Of a DNA stretch of 34,813 nucleotides, positions 1,071 to 29,765 are shown in pieces (position 1 is the stretch's first letter; each line of letters opens with the position of its first letter). This DNA is from Candidatus Aenigmatarchaeota archaeon (GTDB taxonomy: Archaea > Aenigmatarchaeota > Aenigmatarchaeia > QMZP01 > QMZT01), in NCBI GenBank assembly GCA_021162425.1, contig JAGGYQ010000012.1:1-34813 (forward strand), given 5' to 3'. Made by a program: the position numbers and the translations under genes. The notes beneath the pieces were generated by a model. It was given only the letters and a program-made list of their open reading frames with translations, was not told the DNA's origin and searched no databases.

Positions 1071-3041
<1,971 letters not shown>

Positions 3042-3049
3042 GTGTTTGA

Positions 3050-5482
3050 ATGGCAGAAGAAACTAAACACGAAAATATGAAAGAAAGGTTGATAGAAGAA
3101 GAGATGAAGACAAGTTATCTTGATTACTCGATGTCCGTTATCGTAGGGCGCGCATTGCCTGATATAAAAGATGGTCTGAAGCCTGTTCAGAGAAGAATTT
3201 TATATGCGATGTATGAAATGGGCCTGCTCCATAACAAGCCGTATAAAAAATGCGCAAGGATAGTTGGTGAAGTTCTTGGTAAATACCATCCACACGGCGA
3301 TCAAGCAGTTTACGACGCGCTTGTTCGACTGGCTCAGGACTTCTCCTTGAGACACCCGCTTATAGACGGGCAGGGTAATTTCGGTTCAATAGACGGCGAT
3401 GCCCCGGCAGCTATGAGATACACAGAGGCAAGGCTTCGTAACGAGGCAGAAGAGCTTCTGACCGACATAGACAAAAACACCGTAAACTTTGTTCAGAATT
3501 TTGACGCTTCACTTAAGGAGCCTCTTGTCCTACCGGGGAAGTTTCCAAATCTCTTGGTAAATGGGGCGTCAGGTATAGCGGTTGGTATGGCAACAAACAT
3601 ACCACCGCACAATTTAAGCGAGGCAATAGATGCTATAATCGCAACCATAGACAACCCAGACATTACTGTTGAGGAACTGATGGGATACATTCTTGGCCCT
3701 GATTTTCCTACAGGCGGGATAATTCTTGGTAAAGCAGGTTTGATACAGGCATACAAAACAGGGAAAGGATTGATAACAGTCAGAGGGCGTGCAGAGATTG
3801 AGCCAAGAGGAAGCGACAGAGAAAGAATCGTTATAAAGGAAGTGCCATATCAAGTCAACAAGGCAAGACTCATAGAGGAGATAGCGAGAAATGTAAGGGA
3901 AAAAAGAATAAAGGGTATAACCAACATACGCGACGAGTCAGACAAAGAAGGCATAAGAATCGTAATAGATGTTTCCTCAAATACACCCGCGAACGTTGTT
4001 CTGAACAACTTATACAAGCACACCCAACTACAAACGACCTTTGGCATAAATCTACTCGCCCTCGTCGACAATCAGCCTCGACTTCTCAATCTCAAGGAGA
4101 TGATAGTCGAATTCATAAAACACAGGAAAAATGTCGTCACAAAAAGGACGAAATTTGAACTCAGAGAAGCAATGGAAAGAGAACACATACTTGAAGGTCT
4201 TATAATAGCGCTTGACGACATAGACAGGGTGATAAAAACCATAAAATCATCGAAAAACGCCGAAGAAGCAAGGAAAAGATTGATATCGGGATTTGATTTA
4301 AGCGAAAAGCAGGCACAGGCAATACTTGACATGAAGCTTCAGAAACTGACGAATCTCGAGCAGGAAAAGATAAGAAAAGAACAGGAATCGCTCGTCAATA
4401 AAATAATGGAATTGAAAGATATACTCGAACATGAAGAAAAGATTTACGGTATAATAAAGAAGGAACTTGAGGAAATAAAAGAGAAATATGGCGATGAAAG
4501 GAGAACCGAAGTGGTGAAAGGACGTGACAGGATAGAGGACCTCGAGGATGACAGGCTCATCAAACAAGAGGATGTTGTAATACTGATATCCGAAAATGAC
4601 TACATAAAACGTGTCCCGCTCGACGAATACAGACAGCAGAGAAGAGGCGGGAAGGGGATGATAGGAACGCGAACAAAAGAGGGAGACATAGTAAAGAATG
4701 TCTACGTTGTCAATACGCACGATTACCTCATGTTCTTCACAAACAAGGGAAGGGTTTTCTGGTTAAAGGCATATAAAATACCAGAAACTAGCAGGTATTC
4801 AAGAGGGAAGCATATGGCGAATATACTCATGCTTCAAAAAGACGAAAAAGTAAAGGACATAATACCAGTTAAGAAGTTTGAAAAAGGCTTTTACATATTC
4901 TTTGCAACAAAGAAAGGATTGGTGAAAAAAACCGAACTCATGGAATACAGCAGACCCAGAAATTCTGGAATAATAGCAATAAGGTTAAAGGAGGGCGATG
5001 ACTTAATAGAAGCTAGGCTAACCGATGGGAATAAGGAAATAATCTTGGCTACAAAGAAAGGTTATGCCATAAGATTCAGCGAAGCAGACGTCAGACCAAT
5101 GGGGAGAATATCCTCTGGTGTTCGTGGGATAAGATTGAGAAAGGGTGACGAAGTTGTTGGAACAGCCGAGGTTGTTTACGGTGAGTCGTTGCTCACGGTA
5201 ACAGAAAAAGGTTTTGGTAAAAGAACGAAATTCTCGTTGTATAGACGACAGAAAAGAGGCGGAAAAGGAATAAAAAACATGAGAATAACTGAGAAAAACG
5301 GAGACATTATAGGTTGTGAATCAGTAAATGATGAGAATGAAGTGGTGTTGGTTTCCAGAAACGGTCTTGTAATACGGACATTTGCAAAAGACATATCAGA
5401 GGTTGGACGTGTTACTCAAGGCGTGCGTGTTATGAGATTGGATATTGATGATAAATTGGTTTCTCTTGCAAAGGCAGGTTGA
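3050..5482 (+). CDS. gyrA: DNA gyrase subunit A
   Basis: DNA-breaking and DNA-wrapping subunit of gyrase, full length at 810 residues. The winged-helix/tower domain carries the catalytic tyrosine at about residue 124 in 'AMRYTEARL'. The quinolone-pocket helix reads '[10 protein letters not shown]', so the residue matching E. coli Ser83 is Gln; the acidic residue matching Asp87 is kept. The coiled-coil arm covers about 360-480. The C-terminal beta-pinwheel (about 500-805) has the GyrA box 'QQRRGGKG' near residue 529 and a second box-like 'QKRGGKG' in a late blade. An intact GyrA box means the enzyme should wrap DNA and supercoil negatively, so it is gyrase rather than topoisomerase IV. It ends 8 bp from the 3' end of the convergent tRNA-Gly gene. 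Confidence 0.97.
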
Positions 5483-5504
5483 ATTTTGGATGCGCCGGCC
5501 GGGA

Positions 5505-5654
5505 TTTCCAACATAAGGGAGCCTTCCCCTCCCTTATCAACCCTTCCGAGCCATAAGGGAATAAGGGCGCCACGCCCGCCCTTATCAACCCATCCTACCG
5601 TTAAGGCGCCACGCCCTCCTTTATCAACCTTTCCGAGCCGATGGGGTTTCAGCT
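5505..5654 (-). other. 150-nt T-loop intron of tRNA-Gly with three-hairpin repeat array
   Basis: The insertion lies between nt 59 and 60. T-loop TTCA (54-57) pairs with TGGA just before the constant AAT, giving a BHB-like site with AA^A and AA^T bulges. Inside are three degenerate tandem units, each starting GGTTGATAA and folding into a hairpin. Two stems are perfect 9-bp: ATAAGGGCG/CGCCCTTAT and ATAAGGGAG/CTCCCTTAT, where one stem pair changes from C-G to A-T on both sides. The last unit is identical to the 3' end of the tRNA-His intron. The ORF-track protein here (VDKGGRGAL repeats) is an artefact of the repeat. Confidence 0.85.
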
Positions 5655-5683
5655 TTTGAACCCGGGTTACAGGCTTGGGAAGC

Positions 5684-5738
5684 TTACACCAGAGATTTCG
5701 AAAGATGTATGCCAAGCATACATCGATTTACATCCTGT
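5684..5738 (-). other. tRNA intron at 29/30 of tRNA-Gly with near-ideal BHB
   Basis: A 55-nt intron in the anticodon stem. The splice-site fold is a complete bulge-helix-bulge. Central helix: ACAC (nt 24-27) with GTGT at the intron 3' end. Three-nt bulges: GG^A on the 5' side and AA^G on the 3' side. Inner helix: CAGG/TCTG inside the intron. Outer pairs: AGG (21-23) with CTT (31-33). Position 29/30 is a known non-canonical archaeal intron site. Confidence 0.85.
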
Positions 5739-5786
5739 CCGTGTCCTACCAGGCTAGACTACCGGCGCATGAAACCTTTTTGGATT

Positions 5787-6243: not shown

Positions 6244-6300
6244 ACTATAGTTTTCGTGGCTCAGCTTAAAAAGATTTATAGAGGAGCGCTGGGTGCAGGA

Positions 6301-6493
6301 TTCCCGTGAGCCTTTTCCTGAAAAAGGCTCAAGCGAAAAGGAGCCTCACTCCACTTCGTTTCGCTCGGCTTCCATCGGAAGCGAACACAGAGATATTCCC
6401 AATGCTTTTGCCTTGAGGAAAAGCTTCTCGGAAGCGAGTGAGCCTGCGAGCGAAGCTCCTTTTGCTCCACCGCTTTTCTTGAAAAAGCGGTGT
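6301..6493 (-). other. 193-nt T-loop intron of tRNA-Ser
   Basis: Insertion between nt 59 and 60. TTCG (54-57) can pair with CGGG directly before the constant AAT; the G57-C pair replaces the A57-T pair seen in tRNA-Gly and tRNA-His. The insert is GC-rich and highly self-complementary, with hairpins near both ends (CACCGCTTTT/AAAAGCGGTG and GAGCCTTTT/AAAAGGCTC) and long arms AAAAGGAGC/GCTCCTTTT. Inner-helix pairing next to the bulges is poor, so it would be a relaxed BHB. Confidence 0.75.
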
Positions 6494-6511
6494 TTCGAAC
6501 CTGCGCGGGCG

Positions 6512-6630
6512 TACGAGCGAACGACGCACACTCCATGCGCGTCAATCTGGAGCAGCGAAAGACACACACTCCATGCGCGTCAATCTGGAGCAGCGAAAGA
6601 CGCACACTCCATGCGCGTCAATCTGCTTTT
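6512..6630 (-). repeat. Variable-arm insertion of tRNA-Ser with 3 x 38-nt tandem repeat
   Basis: On the plus strand, unit GAGCAGCGAAAGACGCACAC plus TCCATGCGCGTCAATCTG occurs at 6550-6587 and 6588-6625, with a slightly diverged copy ending at 6549. The two perfect-length copies differ at only one base. Each unit folds (GACGCGCA/TGTGCGTC). Probably an intron in the long variable arm, since GGGCG/CGCCC would close normally without it. The exact splice points cannot be fixed: several relaxed BHB registers are possible, for example GCGA/TCGC. Confidence 0.7.
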
Positions 6631-6763
6631 CGCCCACAGGGTTAGCAACCCTGCGCCTTAACCGCTCGGCCAACCCAGCTTGCTCCACAATACAAAATCT
6701 TACGCATAATCTTTATAAATATAAACTAGTTAATATCAATAAATGATTTTATGAGGTGAATAT

Positions 6764-28042: not shown

Positions 28043-29533
28043 ATGGAGGGTGTGACATCGGAAATCGAGGAAAGAAAAAAGAAAGTAACGGAACTGAAAA
28101 GATCAGGTTTTGACCCGTATGGAAAAAAATACGAAAAAACGCATTACATTAAAGAGCTTGCTGATAAGTTTCATGACCTCAAAAACGGCGAGAAAAAAGA
28201 GAAATTCAAGGTATCTTTGGCAGGGCGCATAAGGTCTATAAGGAAGCACGGGAAGATAGCATTCTGCGATTTGCAGGACACATCAGGGAGAATTCAAATT
28301 TTCATAGAGACGAAGACCATAGGCGAGAGAAAATTCAAATTTTTCGATGAAATGGTAAACACAGGCGATATAATAGGTGTGAGAGGTTTTATCTTTCGGA
28401 CTCAGCGCGGTGAATTAACAGTTTGGGTTCAGGACTTTGAACTGCTAACGAAAGCTATACGTCCGCTTCCGAAGGAGTGGTTCGGACTCAAAGACAAGGA
28501 GCTTCGCTACAGGCAGAGATATGTAGACCTTATACTTAATCCAGAAGTGCGCGAAGTTTTCGAAAAAAGAAGAAAGATAAACGAGGCTATCCGTGAGTTT
28601 ATGCGCATGAAAGGGTTTGTCGAGGTCGAAACCCCCATCCTTCAGCCTATATACGGAGGGGCATCCGCGAGACCTTTTGAATCCAAACTCCACGCACTCG
28701 ACATGAAGGTTTATATGAGGATTTCAAACGAGCTTTATCTTAAGCGATTAATAGTGGGTGGGTACGAAAAGATATTTGAGTTTTCGCGTGACTTCAGAAA
28801 TGAGGGGGTTGACAAACTTCATAACCCAGAGTTCACACAGGTTGAAACAATGTGGGCTTACGCTGATTACAAGGATAACATGAGCTTCGCCGAAGAGCTC
28901 TTCAGCTTTATTGCCAAAAAAGTTCTCGGCACAACAAAAATAGAATATCAGGGAAGAAAAATCGACCTCAAGCCGCCATGGAAGAGAATAAGATTCGTTG
29001 ACGCTATAAAAAAGCACACAGGCATCGATTTTGAAAAAAATGCGACAACATTTGAAAAAGCAAGAAAAGACGCTGAGAAACTTGGTCTTGACGTTTCCGA
29101 TTGCGGAACATGGGATGAAGTAGCGATAAAAGTTTTTGAGGATTTGGTTCAGCCGAAGTTGATACAACCAACGCTTGTTTACGATTATCCAGCCGAGGCT
29201 GCTGGTCTGGCAAGGTTGAAAAAAGAAGACCCGAGGTTTGTCATGGCATTCGAAATCATAATAAATGGGTGGGAAATGGGTTTATCATACTGCGAGGAGA
29301 ATGACCCGGAGAGATTGAAGGAATTCTGGAAGAAATCCGAACAGCGGTTGAAAAAAGGTGATTTTGAAGCGCAGAAAATGGATAAAGATTTCCTTCGCGC
29401 GCTTGAATATGGTCTTCCACCAACATCAGGTTTGGGCTTTGGCATAGACAGATTAACTATGCTGCTTACGAATTCTCTGTCTATACGTGATGTCATATTC
29501 TTTCCATTTATGAGACCAAAAGATGACGAGTGA
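28043..29533 (+). CDS. lysS: Lysyl-tRNA synthetase, class II
   Basis: Charges tRNA-Lys. 496 residues. The N-terminal OB-fold anticodon-binding domain (about 50-150, 'VSLAGRIRSIRKHGKIAF') is followed by the class II catalytic core. Motif 1 is around 'VEVETPILQP'. Motif 2 is 'FEFSRDFRNEGVDKLHNPEF'. Motif 3 is 'GLGFGIDRLTMLL', ending with 'RDVIFFPFMRP' as in LysRS. Many archaea use class I LysRS instead, so the class II form is informative about lineage or transfer. The ATG abuts the stop of the PLD gene, so translation is probably coupled. tRNA-His follows 40 bp downstream. Confidence 0.96.
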   Translation: MEGVTSEIEERKKKVTELKRSGFDPYGKKYEKTHYIKELADKFHDLKNGEKKEKFKVSLAGRIRSIRKHGKIAFCDLQDTSGRIQIFIETKTIGERKFKFFDEMVNTGDIIGVRGFIFRTQRGELTVWVQDFELLTKAIRPLPKEWFGLKDKELRYRQRYVDLILNPEVREVFEKRRKINEAIREFMRMKGFVEVETPILQPIYGGASARPFESKLHALDMKVYMRISNELYLKRLIVGGYEKIFEFSRDFRNEGVDKLHNPEFTQVETMWAYADYKDNMSFAEELFSFIAKKVLGTTKIEYQGRKIDLKPPWKRIRFVDAIKKHTGIDFEKNATTFEKARKDAEKLGLDVSDCGTWDEVAIKVFEDLVQPKLIQPTLVYDYPAEAAGLARLKKEDPRFVMAFEIIINGWEMGLSYCEENDPERLKEFWKKSEQRLKKGDFEAQKMDKDFLRALEYGLPPTSGLGFGIDRLTMLLTNSLSIRDVIFFPFMRPKDDE

Positions 29534-29573: not shown

Positions 29574-29737
29574 GGCCGCGGTAGTGTAGCCTGGCCTAGC
29601 ACGGGGGCCTGTGGAGCCCCAGACCCGAGTTCAAATAAGCCTCTCCATTACATATCATAAGGAGTGATGCCTTGACAGTAGGAAGGGTTGATAAGGGAGG
29701 GGAAGGCTCCCTTATGTTGGAAATCTCGGCCGCGGCC
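29574..29737 (+). tRNA. tRNA-His(GTG) with T-loop intron
   Basis: Acceptor GCCGCGG (29575-29581) pairs with CCGCGGC (29730-29736). G-1 at 29574 and C73 at 29737 are both encoded, the histidine identity pair. The D stem is GTGT/GCAC. The anticodon arm is GGGGC-CTGTGGA-GCCCC, anticodon GTG at 29611-29613. The T stem CCGAG/CTCGG is interrupted in its loop by 88 nt; its removal gives loop TTCAAAT. No CCA is encoded. The ORF called at 29672-29863 is an artefact. Confidence 0.92.
29636..29723 (+). other. 88-nt T-loop intron of tRNA-His
   Basis: Between nt 59 and 60. TTCA (54-57) pairs with TGGA before the constant AAT, four of four including one G-U. The 3' part contains the hairpin ATAAGGGAG/CTCCCTTAT and is identical, over 45 nt running through the intron end into the T arm (29681-29725), to the tRNA-Gly intron. 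The 5' half is unrelated to tRNA-Gly. Confidence 0.85.
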
Positions 29738-29765
29738 TATCTTCTAAAACAAGTTTTGGTGTGTT

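Follow-up and report, generated by a model that had tools for sequence, protein, structure and literature searches.

Introns in the variable region of archaeal tRNAs have been described in Thermofilum pendens (a variable-loop intron, named in the title of Kjems et al. 1989 as cited in PMC3978253) and in Caldiarchaeum and Crenarchaeota (V-arm introns; PMC3293823). In Thermoproteales, many introns per tRNA and the copying of introns between tRNAs have been described (2010 work summarized in PMC4033280 and PMC4090602), and Atabeyarchaeia and Freyarchaeia have intron-rich tRNA sets with several introns per gene at noncanonical sites (PMC11291895). The lengths given for archaeal tRNA introns in a 2014 review are 11 to 129 nt (PMC4090602). 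Here we describe a tRNA gene of an Aenigmatarchaeota archaeon in which a V-arm insert, by the features tested in its sequence, is a BHB tRNA intron, and in which the variant is a tandem array inside that intron. It has in common with the Thermofilum pendens, Caldiarchaeum and Crenarchaeota cases an archaeal tRNA intron in the variable region, with the Thermoproteales both several introns per gene and an intron sequence that recurs almost unchanged in different tRNA genes of a genome, and with Atabeyarchaeia and Freyarchaeia several introns per gene at noncanonical sites. It differs from the described V-arm introns in that the tRNA is a class II serine tRNA from Aenigmatarchaeota, a single site is interrupted in all three serine genes found, and the intron has an internal tandem array. 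Unlike in Thermoproteales, which belong to a different phylum, the piece shared between genes includes a tandem repeat with a gene-dependent copy number; Atabeyarchaeia and Freyarchaeia are Asgard archaea, and the parts of PMC11291895 that we consulted do not mention tandem arrays. In a partial literature search, we found no description of tandem repeats in archaeal tRNA introns and no paper on tRNA introns of Aenigmatarchaeota.

The window analyzed is the whole of one 34,813-nt contig (C52 in our numbering) from an assembly of 954 kb in 75 contigs that is 92.6% complete. ARAGORN leaves the window without a tRNA call, and at this locus the score of the Rfam tRNA model is only 23.4 bits, under its 29-bit cutoff. 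The tRNA-Ser(GCT) gene lies on the minus strand at 6287 to 6679 (393 bp) and consists of three exons and two introns, with a predicted mature tRNA of 83 nt that ARAGORN calls as tRNA-Ser(gct) only when both introns are removed; if either is kept, there is no serine tRNA call. Exon 1 (6628 to 6679) carries the 5' strand of the acceptor stem, the D arm, the anticodon arm and GGGC-GAAA of the V arm, its boundary being set by intronless orthologues. Exon 2 (6494 to 6510) carries GCCC of the V arm, the 5' strand of the T stem and TTCGAA, and exon 3 (6287 to 6300) carries the end of the T loop, the 3' strands of the T stem and acceptor stem, and G73. All exon stems are intact. The V-arm intron (6511 to 6627) is 117 nt long and consists of AGC followed by three 38-nt units. 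The second intron, in the T loop (6301 to 6493), is 193 nt long, and its BHB motif, UUCG-[AA↓A] and CGGG-[AA↓U] (arrow, exon-intron boundary), was read by eye from the sequence. Given the range of 11 to 129 nt, the V-arm intron is at the long end and the T-loop intron is outside it.

The array had been noticed in a first-pass annotation, which described a 119-nt loop (6512 to 6630) between GGGCG and CGCCC with three 38-nt copies, two of them almost identical, together with a 193-nt T-loop intron in a 393-bp gene. We confirmed these coordinates and lengths, and splice-site logic refines the 119-nt loop to the 117-nt insert at 6511 to 6627. TRF finds a period of 38 with 2.9 copies, 95% matches and a score of 206 at 6516 to 6625, and comparison of the units agrees. 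Unit 1 (6587 to 6624) forms the hairpin GACGCGCA-TGGAG-TGTGCGTC, and unit 2 (6549 to 6586) differs from it at 1 of 38 positions. Unit 3 (6511 to 6548) differs from both at 4 to 5 positions near its 3' end, and it is in this variant end that the splice motif has its 3' half (UCGU-AC). At period 38, the window's best match is 37/38, and 30 shuffled windows reach no more than 22/38. Apart from the weak tRNA match, no family of Rfam was found in the region. A viral origin of the unit was considered and set aside, there being no exact match in viral contigs, as was dispersal through the genome, in which strong copies are limited to the two serine tRNAs (GCT and CGA). A unit that resembles it (84% over about 45 nt) is found in an intron of another tRNA in genome G003.

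The first-pass annotation described the array as swelling the V arm; a swollen V arm kept in the tRNA is a reading that our comparisons do not support. The ends of the insert form the bulge AA↓A, the 4-bp helix GCGA/UCGU (in which one pair is G-U) and the bulge AC↓G, that is, two 3-nt bulges flanking a 4-bp helix (GCGA-[AAA] and UCGU-[ACG]), and cutting at these positions restores the V arm GGGC-GAAA-GCCC. The uninterrupted arm GGGCGAAAGCCC is present in intronless relatives, namely, tRNA-Ser(GCT) of G024 (L056) and both tRNA-Ser(TGA) and tRNA-Ser(CGA) of G006 (L169 and L182). Because these relatives carry exactly the predicted mature arm, both splice sites are fixed, and because their arm is uninterrupted, tRNA-Ser(GCT) has one boundary pair, with GGGCGAAA before the insert and GCCC after it. 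Removal of the insert thus restores a canonical tRNA that matches its intronless orthologues. The splice register was taken from tRNA-Ser(TGA) and from these orthologues; a first hand pairing (exon UGGGCGAA with intron UUCGCUCG) was dropped since it failed to leave bulges on both strands. Outside the 3' bulge, the exon helix has just 2 bp (GG/CC), and the intron helix is GC/GC with a bulged continuation; the flanking helix is stronger in tRNA-Ser(TGA) (CAGU/ACUG). In the minimum-energy fold of the three-unit arm, unit 1 pairs with unit 3 and the exact 3-4-3 BHB is absent, and the UUUCGC ends of the inner units could be competitors for the 5' splice site.

The genome has three serine tRNA genes that we could find (GCT, CGA and TGA), all with a V-arm insert at the same place, and serine tRNAs of five related Aenigmatarchaeota genomes have V-arm introns at this same site. 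The introns of these relatives are 32 to 72 nt long: L058 (G004), L161 (G007), L057 and L166 (G008), L175 (G021) and L038 (G049). We tested the register on eight V-arm introns from six genomes, excluding tRNA-Ser(CGA) of this genome as a near duplicate. The 3-4-3 motif is perfect in five of the eight and has 3 of 4 positions paired in another two; the G049 insert fails to match the motif when read in the tested register. In total, 26 of 32 pairs form at the chosen register and at most 21 of 32 at any other, the signal is lost by sliding either side, and the shuffle P value for splice-motif pairing across the eight introns is about 5e-6. The register had been spotted by hand before testing, but the intronless orthologues fix it independently for most rows. 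The sequence of the helix varies while pairing is kept (GCGA/UCGC, GCGC/GCGC and GUGC/GUGC), and the predicted mature V arms have a 4-bp stem in 8/8 cases and a GNRA loop in 7/8. Within one genus, the tRNA-Ser(CGA) intron is present in G008 and absent in G005, in which the intronless arm (L190; GGGC-GCAA) equals the arm predicted for the spliced G008 tRNA. At this site, sister tRNAs carry inserts of different sequence that share the splice motif. These comparisons make it almost certain that the V-arm insert of tRNA-Ser(GCT) is an intron, removed from the RNA by splicing.

The genome encodes both a splicing endonuclease and a ligase. A 400-amino-acid endonuclease (PF01974) on contig C72 matches ARMAN-2 EndA (PDB 4fz2) end to end with an E value of 7.8e-104; residues 3 to 400 align to residues 2 to 387 of 4fz2 as a single, collinear chain. 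Position counts in the printed alignment show identical residues opposite Y236, H251, K282, Y160, K161, R275 and W384. In 4fz2, Y236, H251 and K282 are catalytic, and Y160 and K161 belong to the ASL (PMC12397907). By its alignment, the C72 protein is an epsilon2-type splicing endonuclease, a full-length homologue of the ARMAN-2 enzyme with ARMAN-specific-loop residues aligned, and it differs in coming from Aenigmatarchaeota. The ARMAN-2 epsilon2 endonuclease cuts BHB and BHL substrates (PMC12397907). RtcB is encoded on contig C25.

The V-arm intron of tRNA-Ser(CGA) is shorter than that of tRNA-Ser(GCT) by exactly one 38-nt unit and otherwise differs from it by 2 substitutions over 91 nt, so that two tRNA genes of the genome hold near-identical introns. 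In both genes, the terminal unit departs from the inner units in the same way, which means that the two-unit intron predates, or coincides with, copying between the genes, and the two-unit form common to both points to such copying. After the two-unit form, one further unit was apparently gained in tRNA-Ser(GCT) or else lost in tRNA-Ser(CGA). The recent expansion proposed in the first-pass annotation on the basis of near-identical units is supported. The T-loop intron region (6301 to 6493) also has 85 identical nucleotides in common with the T-loop intron of a class II tRNA on contig C31 (L007). Shorter stretches of it are in common with many tRNA introns of other genera.

On the basis of the sequence, the geometry of the splice motif, the presence and absence of introns among relatives and the enzyme genes, we consider it very likely that the repeats lie inside a V-arm BHB intron that is excised by the epsilon2-type enzyme, with joining of the exons, and that the array grew by duplication and was copied between serine tRNA genes. 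We infer the splicing itself, which enzyme performs it, and how and in what order expansion and copying took place, as follows. The epsilon2-type (ARMAN-like) endonuclease of this genome would cleave the precursor within the two bulges, GCGA-[AA↓A] and UCGU-[AC↓G], the exons would be joined, probably by RtcB, to give a normal GGGC-GAAA-GCCC V arm, and the second BHB intron would be taken out of the T loop. The V-arm intron would have been enlarged by tandem duplication of the 38-nt hairpin module, to two units and then to three in tRNA-Ser(GCT), with changes in unit number arising by slippage or unequal crossing-over, and it may have been copied between tRNA-Ser(GCT) and tRNA-Ser(CGA) by intron transposition or gene conversion.

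The V stem GGGCG/CGCCC encloses the array and, as judged from the fold, could form without splicing, so the 38-nt units might in principle be kept in a working mature tRNA as a long, hairpin-rich arm. This is highly improbable given a splice motif placed exactly at the boundaries, the predicted arm seen in intronless orthologues and differing inserts at the same site in sister tRNAs; moreover, the T-loop insert of the same gene cannot stay without breaking the T arm, and ARAGORN gives no serine tRNA with the V insert kept. That the gene is instead a pseudogene or nonfunctional copy, with another tRNA-Ser(GCT) doing the work, we regard as extremely improbable. It is heavily interrupted, and in a 92.6% complete assembly another copy may be missing; however, the other serine tRNAs found are interrupted alike, the exon stems are all intact, and the gene adjoins a 101-amino-acid gene beside which several relatives also have a serine tRNA. 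The named relatives of this neighboring gene are Candidatus Aenigmatarchaeota in nearly all cases. The first-pass annotation had named another normal tRNA-Ser(GCT) as one finding that would overturn its reading, and we found none: the genome has a single GCT serine anticodon arm by a search that would miss any copy with an intron inside the anticodon arm.

An error of assembly could alter the unit count but not the existence of the intron. Tandem repeats collapse or expand easily in a metagenome-style assembly of 75 contigs, and the true intron could hold another number of units. We consider this very unlikely: at just 114 nt the array fits within an ordinary short read, unit 2 carries a private substitution, the 3' end of unit 3 is distinct, and the two-unit version is on a separate contig with different substitutions. 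It is also very unlikely that the array functions independently, for instance by yielding a small RNA when the intron is spliced out. Each unit has a stable hairpin, and some archaeal tRNA introns nest box C/D RNA (PMC4090602), but the region matches no Rfam family except for the weak tRNA match, and the unit is confined to two serine tRNAs of the genome.

Tandem hairpin modules are not limited to this intron. A second, unrelated hairpin unit, GTTGATAAGGG...CCCTTAT, occurs, mostly in tandem, in the T-loop introns of at least 7 other tRNA genes of the genome, as counted by reading and with isotype names read from anticodon loops; the reversed control of this pattern gave no match. Since this second unit is also tandem in several tRNA introns, tandem hairpin modules in tRNA introns are a habit of the genome and not a single accident. 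Two of these tRNA genes fall in the window, and ARAGORN misses both. One is a disrupted tRNA, probably tRNA-Gly(CCC), at about 5487 to 5768 on the minus strand, with an insert near the D or anticodon arm and tandem units in its T-loop intron (TRF match at 5513 to 5606); the other, probably tRNA-His(GTG), is at about 29575 to 29740 on the plus strand and has one unit in its T-loop intron (29687 to 29714). Elsewhere, the unit is found, mostly in tandem, in T-loop introns of L240, L242, L243, L246 and L248 (Val(CAC), Gly(TCC), Leu, Ala(CGC) and one truncated at the end of its contig), and near-identical introns are common to several of these genes.

In related genomes, TTGACG hairpins that resemble the 38-nt unit are present both within introns and in intergenic positions. 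For most genomes, the TTGACG...CGTCTTT pattern is about as frequent as its reversed-pattern control or exceeds it slightly; only in G006 is the excess clear, and with counts so weakly above control we make no claim of a hairpin family. Hairpins of this pattern are found between genes in G006 (L222, L227 and L239), some of them right beside tRNA genes. These intergenic copies are possibly free copies of intron modules. A more general suggestion, which we put forward tentatively and think doubtful, is that the short hairpin modules are, in this archaeal family, small mobile elements that enter tRNA genes in the form of BHB introns, are also present in intergenic positions, spread among tRNAs and multiply in tandem within the introns; the V-arm array would then be a case caught with different copy numbers in two genes.

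If the V-arm array is indeed part of a spliced intron, a small-genome archaeal lineage has tRNA introns with tandem arrays that vary in copy number from one sister gene to another, and an intron-rich tRNA set together with an epsilon2-type endonuclease would be placed in Aenigmatarchaeota. With the same tRNA interrupted in some genomes and intronless in others, even inside one genus, the lineage would provide a clean comparative set for tRNA intron gain, copying and enlargement. It would also explain why standard tRNA finders miss many tRNAs in Aenigmatarchaeota.

Elsewhere in the window, at 1134 to 5482 and 28043 to 29533, this archaeal genome carries a gyrB of bacterial type, next to which lies a gene recognized from its sequence as gyrA-like, and a class II lysyl-tRNA synthetase, also of bacterial type.
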